Assembly: GCF_028473605.1 (NCBI RefSeq)
Contig: NZ_CP097267.1
Location: 4,828,501-4,892,500, forward strand
Reading direction: 5' to 3'
Source: Acidovorax sp. NCPPB 3576
GTDB lineage: Bacteria; Pseudomonadota; Gammaproteobacteria; Burkholderiales; Burkholderiaceae_C
Length of the DNA stretch: 64,000 nt
Part shown: positions 6,875 to 24,754 of the stretch, piece after piece
Layout: each line of letters begins with the position of its first letter
Position numbering within the stretch: the first letter of the stretch is position 1
Made by a program: the position numbers and the translations under genes
Notes under the pieces: generated by a model
The model's input: only the letters and a program-made list of their open reading frames with translations
The model's database searches: none
What the model was told of the DNA's origin: nothing

Positions 6875-7174
<300 letters not shown>

Positions 7175-8053
7175 TCAGTGAGATTCATGCGCCTGGCCGA
7201 GATAGATCAGCGCAAGCATCATGAAAATGAAGGCCTGCAGGGTGATCACCAGGATGTGGAAGATCGCCCAGATCGAGCCTGCAATGATGTGCCCCAGAGG
7301 GAGCAACACACCGGAAAGCGACATGGCAGCAGCACCGCCCATCAGGGCAATCAGCATGAACACCAACTCACCAGCGTACATGTTGCCGAACAGCCGCATG
7401 CCATGCGACACGGTCTTGGCAATGTATTCAATGATCTGCATAAGCAGATTGACCACGCCCAGGATCAGGGCGAAGACGGGATTCTTGCTGGTGCCGAACG
7501 GTGCGGTGACCAGTTCATGCGCCCAGCCGCCCAGGCCCTTGATCTTCACGCTGTAGTACAGGCAAAGCACCAGGATGGCGAACGACAGGCCGAGAGTGGT
7601 GGAAAGGTCGGCGGTGGGCACCACGCGCAGGTAGGCGTGATGCGGGTCGTGGCCGGCGGCACCGTAGATCTGGGCCCAGATGGCAGGCAGCAGATCGACC
7701 GGCAGCATGTCCATGGCATTCATCAGGAAGATCCAGACGAACACAGTCAGAGCCAGGGGCGCAATGAACTTGCGGCTTTCGGCGTTGTGGATATTGGCCT
7801 TGGCCTGGTTGTCCACCATCTCGACCAGGATTTCGACCGCGGCCTGGAAGCGGCCCGGCACGCCGGAGGTCGCCGTGCGCGCCGCACGCCAGAAAACAAA
7901 AAGTGCGATGAAACCGAGAACCAAACCCACGATCACGGAATCGAAGTTCACCACGGAGAAATCGACGATGGACTTCTGCTTGATGTTCTGGAGATGCTGC
8001 AAGTGGTGAACGATGTATTCACTGGCAGTCGGTGCATGCGCTTCTGCGGCCAT
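7175..8053 (-). CDS. atpB: F1Fo ATP synthase, a subunit
   Basis: This 292-aa multi-span membrane protein forms the proton half-channels next to the c-ring. The essential arginine helix is visible in GELVFMLIAL and its preceding SHGMRLFGNMYAGE segment, and the C terminus QAFIFMMLALIYLGQAHESH is typical. It starts MAAEAHAPTASEYIVHHLQ. It lies 22 bp after atpI and 51 bp before atpE. Confidence 0.97.
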   Translation of the reverse strand: MAAEAHAPTASEYIVHHLQHLQNIKQKSIVDFSVVNFDSVIVGLVLGFIALFVFWRAARTATSGVPGRFQAAVEILVEMVDNQAKANIHNAESRKFIAPLALTVFVWIFLMNAMDMLPVDLLPAIWAQIYGAAGHDPHHAYLRVVPTADLSTTLGLSFAILVLCLYYSVKIKGLGGWAHELVTAPFGTSKNPVFALILGVVNLLMQIIEYIAKTVSHGMRLFGNMYAGELVFMLIALMGGAAAMSLSGVLLPLGHIIAGSIWAIFHILVITLQAFIFMMLALIYLGQAHESH

Positions 8054-8074
8054 CGGACAACTCTTCTATCAATA

Positions 8075-8542
8075 TCAATCGGTTTTTCGGACACCGGGCC
8101 GCACCATGAGGGCGATCCAGTACGTTTTCATCGTCACTACCATGCCGGCCAGCAATGCCAGCCAACTCAGCCCCGGAACCAGCCGGGGCGCCGCCGCCAG
8201 CATGGCAACGGTCATTGCAACCTTGACCAACTCCCAGCCGAACAAGCCAGTCATCGCACTTCCTGCGGAAGTTTGATGCCGGGCCATTCCGCGAGCGAAC
8301 AGGGCAGCGGGAATTACCACAGCCAGTGCGCCATACCCCGTGGACCAAGCCACGGTGGGCTTGCCGGAAACCAGCCATGCCACCAGGGCAGCCAGCACTC
8401 CGACGAATGCCTGACCCCAGACGATTCGCCAAACGGAAATTCGCGGATGCCGCAAACGCCACTGAACAGCCTCTTCGGCTGACAGGGGCTTGAAGTCGGA
8501 ATCTTCAGCCTCAGTTTCGTGATCGGGAGCGTTTGTTTTCAT
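8075..8542 (-). CDS. atpI: ATP synthase-associated membrane protein, subunit I
   Basis: This 155-aa protein has a charged N-terminal tail of about 45 residues and then four predicted hydrophobic segments (for example VWGQAFVGVLAALVAWLVSG). AtpI is poorly conserved and is thought to help assemble the c-ring or support Mg2+ supply. Assignment rests mainly on its position as first gene of the atp operon, its size and its topology. The leftward promoter lies about 50 bp upstream of its ATG. Confidence 0.85.
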   Translation of the reverse strand: MKTNAPDHETEAEDSDFKPLSAEEAVQWRLRHPRISVWRIVWGQAFVGVLAALVAWLVSGKPTVAWSTGYGALAVVIPAALFARGMARHQTSAGSAMTGLFGWELVKVAMTVAMLAAAPRLVPGLSWLALLAGMVVTMKTYWIALMVRPGVRKTD

Positions 8543-8590
8543 CGAGGAATGACGCCCACTTTACAGACCGAAACTTTCACAAAGCCCCTG

Positions 8591-8621
8591 ATTATAAGTA
8601 GAAACCACTTTCATCCAGCAA
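8591..8621 (-). promoter_or_regulatory. Probable sigma-70 promoter of the atp operon
   Basis: On the minus strand a perfect TATAAT (8591-8596) is preceded by TTGCTG (8616-8621). The spacing is 19 bp, slightly long. It lies about 50 bp upstream of atpI in the intergenic region shared with the rightward lipoate genes. No clear rightward promoter is seen; a TTATAG close to the ybeD start is weak. Confidence 0.65.
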
Positions 8622-16797: not shown

Positions 16798-19965
<3,168 letters not shown>

Positions 19966-19995
19966 CTTGCCTGACACGCCATGCCGCTGTCTGAG

Positions 19996-20043
19996 GCTGG
20001 CCCTCTGAATCACCGCAGTGAGCGGGAAAGACCGAGGGCCAGC
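19996..20043. terminator. Inverted repeat between convergent operons
   Basis: gctggccctc (19996-20005) is exactly complementary to gagggccagc (20034-20043). This gives a 10-bp stem around a 28-nt loop in the 96-bp gap where czcA meets the HExxH gene. There is no U-tract, so a two-way terminator role is inferred from position. Confidence 0.4.
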
Positions 20044-20061
20044 GCCTGCCGGGCGCCAAGG

Positions 20062-20928
20062 TCAGGCAAGGGTGTAGCCGTGGGCATCCAGCGCAGCGCG
20101 GCCATCATCCAGCACTTGACGGGACCAACGCATGAAGGGCTCGACAAAAGTCTGCCCGATCGAATCCGTTCTGAGGTGCAGGTCGATCTCCCGGTATCCG
20201 GCCTCCATCCGGATCACGTTGCGCGCCAGCAGCATCAGTATCTTGGTCCTTTCCAGCGGATCGCCGGCCTTCTCCAGCATGTACAGATCCAGCGCGGTCA
20301 CGTGCATGAAGGAATACTGCGCATGGAACACCGCCGTCATCGGTCTCGTTCGATCCTTGCGTATAGGGCTATCAAATCGCTGATCGGGCGAATTGGCGAT
20401 CAGCCGGTCTGCCGCTTCCACCGACACACCCATTGCACGCAGCTTGTGGTGCGCCATCTCGTGAAGCAAGGCCTGCGCCAGGCCCAGCGGGTCATCAACG
20501 GTCACCAGGATGCAGCCGAAGTCCGCCTCGTGCGAATGGCTCGATGATCCGAAAGCCCACTGGCCCAGCCGCACCTGCGCCAGATCGCAATAAGGATGCA
20601 CGGCTTCCACCAAGCGCTGAAACTGCGCGTGGGCCGCAGGCCATCGCGCAAGAAGTGCCGCAGCCTTGTCGAGATGCGGGTGGTCCAACGCAGCAGGCAC
20701 CATGCTGGCCGACCCAAGGCCCCGCTCCGGACCGGCGCGCACCGCCACCATGCCACCGCAAAAGGCATGCGAGCCTTCTGGCGGACGGCGCTGATATGGC
20801 GCAGGCCGCAGCGGAGAGGCCCCGCTGCCAGCCAGAGCCAGAATGGCATCGGTGTCGTAGCCGTCTGGCTGCGGCACCGCCATGCGCGACCAGTCAATGG
20901 CCGCCAGAATTTCATCGAATGGCTTCAC
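20062..20928 (-). CDS. HExxH-motif peptide-modification enzyme (putative peptide beta-hydroxylase)
   Basis: This 288-aa protein has His156-Glu157-x-x-His160 in ALLHEMAHHKL. A segment about 40 residues later, SPIRKDRTRPMTAVFHAQYSF (about 187-207), matches the R-P...H..Y/F pattern of the HExxH family found next to radical SAM peptide maturases. Members have been reported as Fe(II)/alpha-ketoglutarate peptide beta-hydroxylases rather than proteases, and that is the likely role here. GTG 20928 is preferred because GGAGGG precedes it directly; an ATG 11 codons upstream lacks such a site. It is the last gene of the His-x-Asp operon, 68 bp after the radical SAM gene. Confidence 0.8.
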   Translation of the reverse strand: MKPFDEILAAIDWSRMAVPQPDGYDTDAILALAGSGASPLRPAPYQRRPPEGSHAFCGGMVAVRAGPERGLGSASMVPAALDHPHLDKAAALLARWPAAHAQFQRLVEAVHPYCDLAQVRLGQWAFGSSSHSHEADFGCILVTVDDPLGLAQALLHEMAHHKLRAMGVSVEAADRLIANSPDQRFDSPIRKDRTRPMTAVFHAQYSFMHVTALDLYMLEKAGDPLERTKILMLLARNVIRMEAGYREIDLHLRTDSIGQTFVEPFMRWSRQVLDDGRAALDAHGYTLA

Positions 20929-20996
20929 GATCCCTCCAAGCCCATGACCACGTGGGGTCATGCGGCAGATGGTTGCGGCGGTTCAGCACAGTGCCG

Positions 20997-23045
20997 TCAA
21001 CCCGAATTCACGCAGGCTGCGGCACGGCGGCCATCGGCGTGCAGCGTGATCGTCTTGCGCGCCGGGACCGAAAACGGAAAACCCAGGCCCTGCGTCGCGA
21101 AAGCGACATGGCTGACGCCCTGCTTCAGGATCGCCATGTCTGCAGCCCCCGGTGGCGCGAGAAAGCACAGCTTGAATACGGGCGCCTTCACCTCGGTGAT
21201 GCCATGCCGGTCAGTCCATGAAATCGACCACGACATCATTTCCTGCAGCCAATCCACCTCGGTTCCATAACCGCCATCGAGTGCGGCCTGCCGCAGCGTC
21301 CGAGCCGCATCCAGCGCGTGCCGGCAACCGGGCTGGCACGGCGCCACCGGCAGCAGAGACAGACCCAGGGGAGCCAGCAGCGAGTGCGGCAAAAAGCCAT
21401 CGTCCAGATGCACTGTGGACGGCGCTTCTGCCGATGCGGCATGGCCTGCCAGGCAACATGGCGGAACCTCCAGCCGCGCCAGGAACGCGCCCCGATCGCC
21501 ATCGGCCCACGCGGCCTGGACAGAAGCCACGCTGGAGGGCTCGCCGCAGATCAGCAGCCCCGCGCGTTCTGCCCAGGGATCGGAAGGGATTGCATGGGTC
21601 AGCGCGGACGACGGCAGGAACGCATGCCCCACCTCCATTCGTCCCGCCAAGCCGGCCAGGCGTTCGAAACTGGACTCAGGAACCAACCGGACCGAGCAAC
21701 GCCCAGAATGCAGCCGGCCTGCATGGATGGTGACGTCTTCCAGCATCGTGCGCACTTGCTCCATGCGCGGCTGCCAGAAACTGCGAGCAGCGTTGCTGAC
21801 CCAGCTGATCCGGGGAATGCTGCCCGCACCGCTCTCGATTTCAGAGGATCGGGGCTCCGGTTCAGCCGCAGGCCCGGCAGGCAGCAGGCCCTGGTGAAAA
21901 TAGCCCAGGGTCTTGCTGATGGACGGATTGCGACCTTGTTTCCAGGCGGTGATCTGGAAACGCTCCAGTTCGATGCGCAAAGGCTGCAAGGTCAAGGGGA
22001 TTCTTCCCGCAAGAACCAATCGGGATTCGATCAACTGGAAGAGATGCTTCCATTCCTCGCAGTTTTCCGTGCGGTTGCGCCAGTCGCCCCCGACCGCCGT
22101 GCCGGGACACTGTCCCTTGCACATGAGAAAGAAGCGGCATCCAGAACAACCATGATCCGATTGAGGCGTGTTGAAAAGAGCCACATAGCGCTCGAATCCC
22201 GGTACCTGCGCCTTGATGAAATCGATGCCGTCCTTGTTGGTCCTTCCGCAGTTGCTCGACTGTCCATTTCCTTCCACGCCCTGCACCGCCTCCGTGGTGT
22301 AGGGATCGCAGGCGCGCCAGATGCAGCTGGCCTTGCCGTCCTTTCCCTCCAACAGGTTCTCGATATCGCGGAACAGATCGAAACGAATGTTGGTGAAGCG
22401 AGGCTCCGCCTGCGCAAAAGCCAACAACGCCGAAATGTTCTGCTGGGCTGAGAGCACCAGGCGCCCCCGCAACGATTCATCGTCGACTTCGAGCAGATGC
22501 AACCGGACATTCCGAATGCCCATCGTGTCCAGCCGGTGCATCCATTCGATCATTTCCGGAATCTTTTCACCGCTCGCGTTTCCACCGTGCAGCGTGACGA
22601 TCAGGCTGGGTACCTGGCGCGCGTCGCACAGTTGCGCAATCACGTCCTCCACCCGCGCAGTGGCCTGGCGTGTCTTTTCCAGGCTGCCGTTCCAGCGGGC
22701 GTCATTCATCGGTCCCGGTCCGTCGATCGAGATGCCCACGCTCACCTTGTATCGACGGAACAGGTCGATGTGCCGGCCTTCAATCAGCACGCCGTTGGTC
22801 TGGATGGTATTGGCGCCAAACCGCTCAAGCCCCCACGCAAACAGGTGCTCCAGGTCGTCGAACTTCATCAGCAGGGGCTCCCCGCCGAACAACGTGAAGG
22901 GTCCGCCGATGCGCTCGGCTTCCGCTTTGATCTTCTCCAGGTCGTAGGGCGTGCGGTGATTGCCGGCGTCCCGCTGCGGCTGCTGGTAGCAGTAGCTGCA
23001 CGCCAGATTGCATGCCACGCCCAGCGGGCGAAGTTCGATGGTCAT
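20997..23045 (-). CDS. Radical SAM/SPASM peptide maturase with a long C-terminal extension
   Basis: This 682-aa enzyme has the SAM cluster cysteines C12, C16, C19 (ACNLACSYCYQQ) and the GGEP motif at 54-57. Its SPASM domain follows the signature spacing exactly: C246-x14-G-x4-C266, then C300-x2-C303-x5-C309-x3-C313 and C329, enough for two auxiliary [4Fe-4S] clusters. The architecture is that of FxsB/anSME-like peptide-modifying maturases. Residues about 340-682 are not recognised; they may bind the substrate. It follows the His-x-Asp protein gene by 105 bp, so that protein is the likely substrate. A GGAG lies about 9 nt before ATG 23045. Confidence 0.88.
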   Translation of the reverse strand: MTIELRPLGVACNLACSYCYQQPQRDAGNHRTPYDLEKIKAEAERIGGPFTLFGGEPLLMKFDDLEHLFAWGLERFGANTIQTNGVLIEGRHIDLFRRYKVSVGISIDGPGPMNDARWNGSLEKTRQATARVEDVIAQLCDARQVPSLIVTLHGGNASGEKIPEMIEWMHRLDTMGIRNVRLHLLEVDDESLRGRLVLSAQQNISALLAFAQAEPRFTNIRFDLFRDIENLLEGKDGKASCIWRACDPYTTEAVQGVEGNGQSSNCGRTNKDGIDFIKAQVPGFERYVALFNTPQSDHGCSGCRFFLMCKGQCPGTAVGGDWRNRTENCEEWKHLFQLIESRLVLAGRIPLTLQPLRIELERFQITAWKQGRNPSISKTLGYFHQGLLPAGPAAEPEPRSSEIESGAGSIPRISWVSNAARSFWQPRMEQVRTMLEDVTIHAGRLHSGRCSVRLVPESSFERLAGLAGRMEVGHAFLPSSALTHAIPSDPWAERAGLLICGEPSSVASVQAAWADGDRGAFLARLEVPPCCLAGHAASAEAPSTVHLDDGFLPHSLLAPLGLSLLPVAPCQPGCRHALDAARTLRQAALDGGYGTEVDWLQEMMSWSISWTDRHGITEVKAPVFKLCFLAPPGAADMAILKQGVSHVAFATQGLGFPFSVPARKTITLHADGRRAAACVNSG

Positions 23046-23087
23046 TGCCTGGATCTCCAGTGGTCATCTTCTCGTGGACGGAACGCA

Positions 23088-23101
23088 GCATCCATGGATG
23101 C
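23088..23101. promoter_or_regulatory. Perfect 14-bp palindrome in the precursor/radical SAM gap
   Basis: gcatccatggatgc is its own reverse complement and lies 43 bp upstream of the radical SAM start. It could be an operator, or a weak hairpin setting the ratio of precursor to enzyme. Part of the element repeats immediately (tccatggatgcatgga). Function is inferred from position only. Confidence 0.4.
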
Positions 23102-23150
23102 ATGGACACCGCCAAGCTGCGCGGGCTGGCACATGGCCCCCGCGCAGCGG

Positions 23151-24116
23151 TCAGCACTGGCAGGCCAGGAATGGTGCGGGGATGGCCCCGTTGATGGCAT
23201 CCTCGGTCTCGGATGCGATGAAGCCATTGACCAGCGCAGTCACCGTCTTGAGCAACGCATTCCCCAGATTGAGGGCATCGGCATCGCTCAGGCCCACCGA
23301 GATCAGTGCACCCGCAATGCCACTCCAGTTGCTGTAGCTGCTGACATTCGTCGGCAACGTGACCGTGATGCTGTCGATCGATGCGTAGTAACCGGGGACC
23401 TTGTTCTCGGTATTGCCCGTGCAGTAGAGCGAGATGGCGCCGGCCATGGTGCCGGTCGTCCCTTTCACCGCCACGCTGGAATGGTCCGTGGCGGCTGGAA
23501 GCGGCGGAGCCTGTACGCTGATATCGAACGATGGCGTCAAGGCAGAGCCGAAAGAAACATCAGCCGAGAAGGGGAACGAATACCCTGTCGCGGGAGGCAT
23601 GGGAATGTCCACCGATGAAGGAATCACCAAGTTGCTGATCACCAGCGAACCGCAGCCGGTCAGCTGACTGAGCTTTGCCGTACAGATGATGCCGCCCACC
23701 GTGGTCGCCGGGGTGTCGTAATGCGCGGACGTATCGTCGTGCGGCAGCGAGGTATCGTCGTGTGGCGTGGACGTATCGTCGTGCGGCGTGGTGTCGGTAT
23801 GCGGTATGCCCAACGGCTTGTAGCCGGGAATATCGTCATGCACGAGCTTGGAATCGACATGGTTATTCGTGTCCACGTGATCGTTGGTGTCGACGTGGGC
23901 TCCTGTCGAATCCGCATGGGGAATGGTGGAACTGGAGCCATAGGTTTCTGTGACGCTTGCCGCATTGCAGAAGTACATGTTGTCCAGCACGGATGGCTTG
24001 CACCCCTGGGCGATCTCGAACGTGTAGTTTTGCGCCGCAGGTGACTGGATAGCGGTATTGATGGCGACGGTCAGGCTGGATGCGAGATCCGGTGGCAGCT
24101 GGATGGTTTGAGACAT
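23151..24116 (-). CDS. His-x-Asp repeat protein, likely substrate of the adjacent radical SAM and HExxH enzymes
   Basis: This 321-aa protein has no signal peptide and is not recognised outside its repeat region. Residues 67-134 hold ten His-x-Asp triplets (His at 67, 74, 80, 86, 93, 106, 112, 119, 126, 132), nine followed by Ser or Thr and mostly 6-7 residues apart. The 13-residue gap between 93 and 106 has Tyr99 where another His would fall. The remainder is Ser/Thr/Val-rich with seven Cys (39, 50, 145, 155, 232, 319, 321), ending CQC. A strong GGGAG site lies 6 nt before the ATG. It is the first gene before the maturase and HExxH genes, as expected for a RiPP-type precursor, although it is far longer than most. 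Confidence 0.8.
   Translation of the reverse strand: MSQTIQLPPDLASSLTVAINTAIQSPAAQNYTFEIAQGCKPSVLDNMYFCNAASVTETYGSSSTIPHADSTGAHVDTNDHVDTNNHVDSKLVHDDIPGYKPLGIPHTDTTPHDDTSTPHDDTSLPHDDTSAHYDTPATTVGGIICTAKLSQLTGCGSLVISNLVIPSSVDIPMPPATGYSFPFSADVSFGSALTPSFDISVQAPPLPAATDHSSVAVKGTTGTMAGAISLYCTGNTENKVPGYYASIDSITVTLPTNVSSYSNWSGIAGALISVGLSDADALNLGNALLKTVTALVNGFIASETEDAINGAIPAPFLACQC
23724..23786 (-). repeat. Three 21-bp tandem repeats encoding PHDDTS[T/L/A]
   Basis: Residues 111-131 of the His-x-Asp protein are three consecutive heptads, PHDDTST, PHDDTSL and PHDDTSA. The DNA copies share a gtatcgtcgtg core and differ at a few bases, consistent with in-frame tandem duplication. Confidence 0.9.
23844..23897 (-). 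repeat. Three 18-bp tandem repeats encoding HVD[T/S]-type hexads
   Basis: Residues 74-91 of the His-x-Asp protein are HVDTND, HVDTNN and HVDSKL. This is a second, independent array with a 6-residue period, separate from the downstream 7-residue array. Confidence 0.85.
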
Positions 24117-24754
24117 GGTTCACTCCCTTGGTTGAATTGGTTTTACCCATTGGCAAAAATCGCCGACATGGAACTTGCGTGCGGGTGGCATTTACCGGGG
24201 GGCACAGGGGTGATGCCGTCAGATGCAGAAGCTGGATTTCCGCTTCGATATTTCTCAGTGGATGAAGAAATGGATGGCCCCTCAATATGAAGACGCATCC
24301 ACACAACCATGCTTGGCATGCATATTGAAAATACATGCCGCACGAATATCAGTTCCACGGACAAGTACAGACAGGTCTCCATGCCCATGCACGGATGGCG
24401 GAAAATCAATGGAGTTGCGGACGAACGGCCTTGACCTCCATGCCCCGGCTTTGCAGACGGCTACATGAGCGCCATGGGCGGACCATGGAATAGCACGGCG
24501 CGTGATTCCATGAAAGGCCGCAGCAGCTTTTGACCTGCATTCATCAGAAATCCCTCCCTATTGGAAAGGCGGTATGTCATTAAGGAAAGATCCAACTGGA
24601 CCTGCCTTTGCATTCGCCTTTGATCTAGTTTTATTTTGATAAATCTGCAATGAATATAGCAGTGATTTTTTATCTTGGAGTCTGCAAGACGTAGCTGAAA
24701 ACACCGAGACAAAAATGCAACACTGCCATTGCAAATGCCGCCATGGCCGGTAAA
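24117..24754. other. 638-bp low-GC region upstream of the His-x-Asp operon
   Basis: This stretch is noticeably poorer in G+C than its surroundings, especially 24580-24720, which has several A/T runs. It separates the operon from kdpE, which also points leftward. It contains one short ORF with a good ribosome binding site (24461-24544, listed separately). No convincing -35/-10 pair was found. Composition and the isolated nature of the operon hint at horizontal acquisition, but no transposase, tRNA or direct-repeat boundary is visible. Confidence 0.5.
24461..24544 (-). CDS. Possible 27-codon small ORF in the operon leader
   Basis: ATG 24544 is preceded by a strong purine-rich site (GGGAGGGA, 6-7 nt upstream) and opens a 27-aa frame, MNAGQKLLRPFMESRAVLFH and a short tail ending GPPMALM. 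It precedes the His-x-Asp gene by about 345 bp on the same strand. It could be a leader peptide or a small precursor, or chance. It lacks the His-x-Asp motif and has no recognised relatives. Confidence 0.3.
   Translation of the reverse strand: MNAGQKLLRPFMESRAVLFHGPPMALM

Follow-up and report, generated by a model that had tools for sequence, protein, structure and literature searches.

A His-x-Asp protein and a putative radical SAM modification cassette in Acidovorax sp. NCPPB 3576, with relatives found mostly in tailed viruses

Within a 64,000-nucleotide stretch of DNA from Acidovorax sp. NCPPB 3576 (the whole of which is referred to here as the window), three open ORFs, all on the minus strand, encode a protein with a tract of His-x-Asp (HxD) motifs, a radical SAM/SPASM enzyme fused to a DUF483-like domain, and an HExxH enzyme. 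The locus is best explained as a copy, outside a viral context, of a system for modification, relatives of which were found mostly in tailed viruses. By comparison of loci, members of a single radical SAM/SPASM family occur, along with a DUF483-like protein (fused in the window), near proteins that carry tracts of His-x-Asp or, more broadly, of aromatic-x-Asp/Asn (His-x-Asn and Phe-x-Asn in some viruses), and the link between enzyme and substrate that these comparisons predict is a strong one. A preliminary description had reported here a same-strand repeat protein, a radical SAM protein with SPASM cysteines and an HExxH protein, and our analysis confirms these ORFs, at the same coordinates, and their motifs.

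The cassette and its setting in Acidovorax

The putative substrate is a protein of 321 aa (23151..24116, minus strand) in which 10 HxD motifs stand between two orphan flanking regions. The motifs (HAD HVD HVD HVD HDD HTD HDD HDD HDD HYD) form a tract at residues 67–134 (23715..23918, minus strand) and take up 10 of the 11 His of the protein; shuffles of the same composition contain a mean of 0.87 HxD and at most 5, and none of 20,000 reached 10. Three ORFs of at least 60 aa in the window contain five or more HxD, and in density this one far exceeds the other two (3.1% of residues versus 1.0% and 0.9%). It matched no Pfam or NCBIfam family at E values up to 1; a search for relatives in 398 genomes of the phylum matched its own genome alone, and one in plasmids gave no match. 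The predicted structure of the protein is unusable (pLDDT 35.5).

The radical SAM/SPASM core forms residues 1–345 (22011..23045, minus strand) of an ORF of 682 aa (20997..23045, minus strand) and contains the CX3CX2C motif, at residues 12–19, and two sets of auxiliary-cluster cysteines. These are arranged as C246...G-x4-C266 and C300-x2-C303-x5-C309-x3-C313...C329, the standard SPASM spacing being Cx9-15Gx4C followed by CX2CX5CX3C...C, and Pfam PF04055 matches at 50.9 bits against a cut-off of 29.5. SPASM enzymes of the triceptide type join an aromatic ring to the Cβ of the residue two positions on, and maturases of this kind (the FxsB/GrrM/XyeB/AmcB/YhhB type) resemble the window enzyme in their SPASM architecture and in having an aromatic-x-residue substrate motif. 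The window enzyme nevertheless falls far below all of the curated cut-offs: none was reached among the 25 listed of 57 NCBIfam matches, the best being DynA (66.8 of 450 bits), and FxsB (TIGR04269) scored 40.3 bits against a cut-off of 370, so that membership of the FxsB family, to which the enzyme had been likened in the preliminary description, is unsupported. Sulfatase maturases are among the best NCBIfam matches, and solved relatives of the core include an anaerobic sulfatase maturase, the nearest (4k36; E 2.4e-22), and ChlB (9gm3; E 5.4e-20). An assignment to the prokaryotic viperins, which act in defence, was rejected (NCBIfam viperin, 36.5 bits against a cut-off of 180; PADLOC pVip, 39.5 bits).

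The C-terminal part of the same ORF, which the preliminary description had overlooked, is a DUF483-like domain at residues ~412–665 (21051..21812, minus strand) with conserved PxCC and PCxxxC motifs. Aligned by hhalign against 19 viral or prophage proteins, it gave a probability of 99.9 and an E value of 5.4e-32. PF04467 (DUF483) itself has no match in the window protein at E values up to 1, and its cut-off is passed in four of the nine viral or prophage relatives scanned (L145, L158, L044 and L171); it is by this profile similarity and by the PxCC and PCxxxC cysteines that the domain is recognized as the DUF483-like partner of the cassette. The longer relatives, six of the nine, have a methyltransferase-like C-terminus (Pfam matches under the cut-off). 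A confident model of the L044 protein (pLDDT 90.9, pTM 0.87) gave no clear match in a structural search.

Downstream lies an enzyme of 299 aa (20062..20961, minus strand) that scores 73 bits against TIGR04267 (cut-off 40) and has the HExxH motif HEMAH at residues 167–171 (20449..20463, minus strand), in which H, E and H are invariant in all eight aligned sequences. αKG-HExxH enzymes β-hydroxylate peptides, and at the level of the family the earlier assignment to this kind holds. As a single query the enzyme found ChlH (8s5f) at an E value of only 0.73; the profile built from it and seven relatives found 22nu at 3.6e-6 and 8s5f at 0.0044. TIGR04267 is over its cut-off in the window, L151, L176 and L199, and short of it in L182 and L126.

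The cassette occupies a variable segment (19932..24754) between ORFs that we take to be czcA-like and kdpDE-like. In three of five congeners (G1040, G1041 and G1044) the cassette is absent and the distance from the czcA-like to the kdpE-like gene is 1.4–1.5 kb, compared with 4.8 kb in the window; in the other two (G1033 and G190) the kdpE side alone was matched in the stretch fetched. The gap in G1041 and G1044 contains a gene that by eye looks pectate-lyase-like, and the kdpE-like protein is present in 17 of 17 genomes of the genus. There are no tail genes among the ORFs adjoining the cassette, both flanks being common to congeners that lack it. Where a classical RiPP cluster would carry a protease and/or exporter of its own next to the precursor, the neighbouring ORFs here look like czcA and kdpDE. 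The G+C content of the three cassette genes is 59.5–63.3%, against 65.2% for the window. The three-gene cassette was probably acquired horizontally, from elsewhere. No match to a sigma-70-like promoter was found, against 1.7 expected.

Relatives in viruses, a plasmid and other bacteria

Most of the relatives found are viral. Regions of tail genes contain them in Thermus phages, on a haloarchaeal plasmid, in a Bacillota genome and on at least 80 IMG/VR contigs. The radical SAM gene was searched for in 299 genomes of the family (E 1e-30) and in 398 of the phylum (E 1e-25); in each set it is present in one genome, the window's own. In the phage collection, the core is 52–54% identical to proteins of phiLo, phiMa and Cumys, for all of which T. 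thermophilus HB8 is the recorded host; the remaining 8 of the 11 records match weakly (E 5e-9 or worse). The order in phiMa and Cumys is tail genes, an HxD protein (53 and 54 HxD), the radical SAM gene and the gene for a DUF483-like protein. In Cumys the tail genes are annotated as baseplate and tail collar fibre, and the enzyme genes as 'rSAM protein' and 'DUF483-domain protein'. phiLo encodes three HxD proteins, with 72, 101 and 55 HxD (77, 108 and 66 aromatic-x-D), on the opposite strand at a distance of several kb. The Thermus phage cassettes thus resemble that of the window in their radical SAM enzyme, their DUF483-like partner and their HxD proteins with dozens of motifs, but their DUF483 gene is separate, no relative of the window HExxH enzyme was detected in the phage collection at an E value of 1e-5, and they lie in a tail context, whereas the window cassette has no adjacent tail genes.

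On a Halomicrococcus plasmid, a virus-like haloarchaeal element, a baseplate J gene (51.8 bits, over the cut-off) precedes the set. A gp25-like gene that scores just below its cut-off (26.7 against 27.2 bits) is also ahead of the set, as is a long ORF without a Pfam match that we take for a candidate fibre. The best 80 of 218 IMG/VR contigs all score inside the core family and are 36–56% identical. PHROGs tail families were matched by 6 of 18 viral or prophage neighbours or HxD-locus proteins: four of nine in one set (tape measure, host-specificity tail protein, baseplate hub and tail tube) and two of nine in another (tail fibre, in L004 and L044). The HxD proteins themselves matched no PHROGs family in four of four queried, and one of the six scanned, from the viral locus L131, is collagen-like (PF01391).

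A search of genome contigs gave two family members among the best 80 loci listed, L043 and L044; since the count rests on those 80 loci, bacterial occurrence is a lower bound. In L043, from an acidobacterial (Bryobacterales) MAG, the core is 71% identical to that of the window, the radical SAM::DUF483 fusion is the same and the full three-gene set is present, with the HExxH gene interrupted in the assembly by an ambiguous base and a frame change. A search of genomes for the same triad, as proposed in the preliminary description, therefore finds it again in another phylum. The suggestion made there, that the product is a modified protein rather than a small peptide, fits the large substrates in viral tail regions and fits less well the two HxD ORFs of L043, one of 87 aa with 7 HxD and one of 69 aa with 11. 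Two of 347 genomes of that phylum are positive, L043's own and G1032, which has an HxD ORF, a radical SAM gene and a separate DUF483 gene; the 13 kb read from it gave no match for HExxH. A quick tree joins the window to L043 at 100 and the two of them to G1032 at 91% SH-aLRT; its root gives no direction of gene movement. The window itself displays the viral-cassette pattern of a radical SAM core, a DUF483 partner and an HxD-rich protein on one strand, at a tract density of 3.1% that is below the 4% used for viral ORFs.

Co-occurrence and conservation of the motif

We compared 'strong' loci, which score more than 150 bits against a profile of the core (lowest 238.8), with 'weak' controls, other radical SAM loci from the same scans (highest 125.3). 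A strict test, requiring an ORF on the same strand within 6 kb with at least 6 aromatic-x-D making up more than 4% of residues, was positive in 77 of 93 strong loci (a number that includes duplicate records and the window, which itself fails on density) and in 1 of 105 weak loci, where the lone positive, in L077, is a Trp/Asp-rich ORF and not HxD. For a non-redundant set, 94 sequences, 92 of them with a long enough core, were clustered at 90% identity into 60 clusters, from which the window and G1032 were removed to leave 58 loci. By a laxer test, applied to both sets (at least 5 H-x-D/N, more than 3%, anywhere in the fetched stretch), an H-x-D/N-dense ORF is present in 49 of the 58 loci and in 0 of the 105 controls. 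The preliminary description had held that its reading would fail if the enzymes' homologues always lay beside an unrelated precursor, and these counts indicate otherwise. A DUF483-like ORF accompanies 54 of the 58 (8 of which gave rows to that profile) and none of the controls, at similar median stretch lengths of 18.8 kb for the 58 loci and 20.4 kb for the controls. Several of the nine loci without a dense ORF are on short contigs, three hold sparser tracts (L133, L147 and L163, with 48, 10 and 9 aromatic-x-D), and L002 (Halorussus) has none in 13 kb.

Searches started from the partner genes lead back to the radical SAM gene: it is present at all 16 viral loci reached through DUF483, 14 of which lie on contigs already known, and at all 5 reached through the HExxH profile, each on a known contig. 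HxD motifs also occur in the radical SAM protein, whose final 90 residues contain three or more of them in 49 of 94 strong records, counting duplicates, and in 0 of 105 weak ones. The HExxH enzyme is an optional component of the cassette, found in 6 of the 58 loci (L043, L151, L176, L182, L195 and L199) and in none of the 105 controls, and the viral gene is scattered over several parts of the tree (L151, L176, L199, L182/L192/L195 and L126/L128, some via a cluster representative).

Across 73 non-redundant HxD ORFs, His is followed by Asp at +2 in 2003 cases against 343 expected, an excess that is partly built in because the ORFs were chosen for dense aromatic-x-D. H–D pairs are below expectation at spacings of 1, 3, 4 and 5, and are 1.4 times expected at 6. 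The residue at +2 after His is Asp or Asn in 2380 of 2582 cases, with Asn, whose share was not selected for, in 377. Also independent of the selection are the absence of HxS and HxT from dense tracts, where ~192 of each were expected, and the enrichment there of FxN, at 5.1 times expected. The other ratios to expectation in dense tracts are 1.3 for FxD, 1.5 for YxD, 2.0 for YxN, 0.87 for HxN and 2.2 for the non-aromatic TxN; because FxD, YxD and HxN are weak and TxN behaves like YxN, the main basis for a general 'aromatic' rule is His together with Phe-x-Asn. In 10 orthologue pairs picked by hand, with motifs defined in the first member of each pair, His was kept in 353 of 369 and Asp/Asn in 352 of 370 positions (95–96%), compared with 248 of 369 for the intervening residue and 621 of 963 for other residues of the tract (64–67%), so that a His (or Phe) is maintained jointly with the Asp/Asn at +2 and the intervening sequence drifts. 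An aromatic first residue and an Asp/Asn third is the pattern of known three-residue cyclophane enzymes, and the corresponding aromatic-x-X3 core motif is found both in the 10 HxD of the window and in the family-wide statistics.

Proposed modification, alternatives and meaning

From these sequence patterns we judge it somewhat likely that the radical SAM and DUF483 part crosslinks the aromatic ring to the Asp/Asn at +2, with the HExxH enzyme adding a β-hydroxyl. The radical SAM enzyme would take a β-hydrogen from Asp/Asn, and the resulting carbon would be joined to the aromatic ring two positions before it, so that three-residue His-Asp cyclophanes would follow one another as a chain down the tract. 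The DUF483-like part may present the tract or add a cysteine- or metal-dependent step, and the HExxH enzyme, here and in a minority of relatives, may β-hydroxylate the Asp or His of the same tract. The outcome would be a stiff, protease-resistant, metal-binding rod, which in phages could be part of a tail fibre and in the window protein a spacer linking the two flanking regions or domains. More tentatively, and as something that falls a little short of likely, we propose that many tailed viruses of bacteria and archaea build a part of the tail from giant aromatic-x-Asp/Asn proteins that a radical SAM enzyme and a DUF483 protein, sometimes with an αKG oxygenase, would turn into a continuous chain of cyclophanes, the window being a bacterial version with all of the enzyme functions in one operon.

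Two further known systems come close to this one. ChlB/ChlH-type pairs (TIGR04267; PDB 8s5f, 9gm3 and 22nu), in which a radical SAM and an HExxH enzyme act on motifs with an aromatic residue, share the HExxH family and the radical SAM partner; the window differs from them in its separate HExxH gene, its DUF483-like fusion, its HxD motif and its relatives in viral tail clusters. The His-Xaa-Ser (Hxs) system likewise combines a His-containing tripeptide repeat with radical SAM chemistry, but the repeat here is HxD/HxN, with HxS absent from the dense tracts of relatives; HxsB reaches 35.2 of 370 bits in L003 and is absent among the 25 listed matches of the window protein; and no second radical SAM gene was seen among the ORFs listed.

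A non-crosslinking reaction is possible, because the core matches 4k36 slightly better than ChlB. That the radical SAM enzyme carries out some other reaction on the motif Asp/Asn or His (oxidation like that of sulfatase maturases, epimerisation or an inter-chain bond in a trimer) and forms no cyclophane within the motif seems to us unlikely. Its nearest solved relatives and some of its best NCBIfam matches are indeed sulfatase maturases, and the collagen-like HxD protein of L131 suggests oligomeric fibres with possible inter-chain bonds; yet oxidation or epimerisation of Asp alone requires neither a His exactly two positions before it nor a Phe before Asn, both of which pairings are seen, and both ends of the motif are conserved. 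It is improbable that the functional modification in the window is mainly hydroxylation, with the radical SAM step minor or lost: the HExxH enzyme does exceed its curated cut-off, and the radical SAM Fe-S cysteines are present, with activity being a prediction, but the window core retains both its SAM and its SPASM cysteines, and across loci it is the radical SAM and DUF483 genes that are constant and HExxH that is optional (54 versus 6 of 58).

Because His and Asp are metal ligands and a putative czcA-like efflux gene is next door, the HxD tract might be read as chiefly a metal-binding repeat with enzymes as incidental neighbours. We consider this very improbable, given the pairing in 49 of 58 loci versus 0 of 105 controls, the enrichment of Phe-x-Asn although Phe is no metal ligand, and the presence of the czcA-like gene in congeners without the cassette. 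It is improbable, too, that the cassette is a decayed remnant, unexpressed or inactive. The restriction of the radical SAM gene to the window's own genome within its family and phylum and the lack of a sigma-70-like promoter match would fit such a remnant, but the three frames are open, the motif residues are retained and another phylum has the same set, its core 71% identical.

Most of what is known of radical SAM chemistry on peptides comes from small peptides that are secreted. Enzymes of the kind described here instead accompany long repeat proteins, both in tail regions of diverse viruses and in a few bacterial chromosomes. Provided that the tracts are crosslinked, DUF483 would gain a role, about 100 modifications would be possible on one protein, and viruses, including those of Thermus and haloarchaeal hosts, would be using radical enzymes to make unusually stiff or heat- or salt-stable tail parts. 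Should the reading of these proteins as virion components be true, they would constitute a radical-SAM-made structural polymer in the virion.

Variable occupancy of the czcA-kdpE gap

The gap between the czcA-like and kdpE-like genes (19932-24754 in the window) is a variable site in the genus: in the window it holds the three-gene cassette, and in two congeners (L228, L229) it is occupied by a pectate-lyase-like gene, named by eye.

Candidate substrate proteins at other loci

Reading of the ORFs at the locus of Thermus phage phiLo (L040) revealed three giant His-x-Asp (HxD) proteins in succession at 17807-23663, on the strand opposite to that of the radical SAM gene; by motif count these proteins, of 474, 782 and 675 aa, contain 77, 108 and 66 aromatic-x-Asp motifs, respectively. 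At a viral locus (L131, 6510-8186), an HxD/His-x-Asn protein carries a collagen-like repeat (PF01391, 84.9 bits). We note that, as judged by eye, L139 82-1785 resembles this protein. On a Halorussus plasmid (L002, 6001-8206) a radical SAM gene is accompanied by a DUF483-like gene, and no HxD-dense ORF was found within the 13 kb fetched; the pair may be an orphan or a remnant.

Modifying enzymes

Directly upstream of the HxD genes of L044 lie two tandem ORFs (7164-8599). By eye they appear 2-oxoglutarate oxygenase-like, with HxD...H; a Pfam search returned no match backing this identity. Possibly they represent another oxygenase that substitutes for the HExxH enzyme. One ORF of L004 (11232-12587) combines a DUF483-like domain with a methyltransferase-like domain, a fusion also present in other long DUF483-like ORFs (Pfam matches below cut-off), hinting at an additional modification.

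About half of the radical SAM family sequences scoring high to the core profile (49 of 94 records, duplicates included) have an HxD-rich C-terminus, as exemplified by a viral ORF at L041 12001-13251. It is as if enzymes with such C-termini modify or mimic their own substrate. At another viral locus (L195, 103-3492) the first of two adjoining radical SAM paralogues bears 24 HxD motifs.
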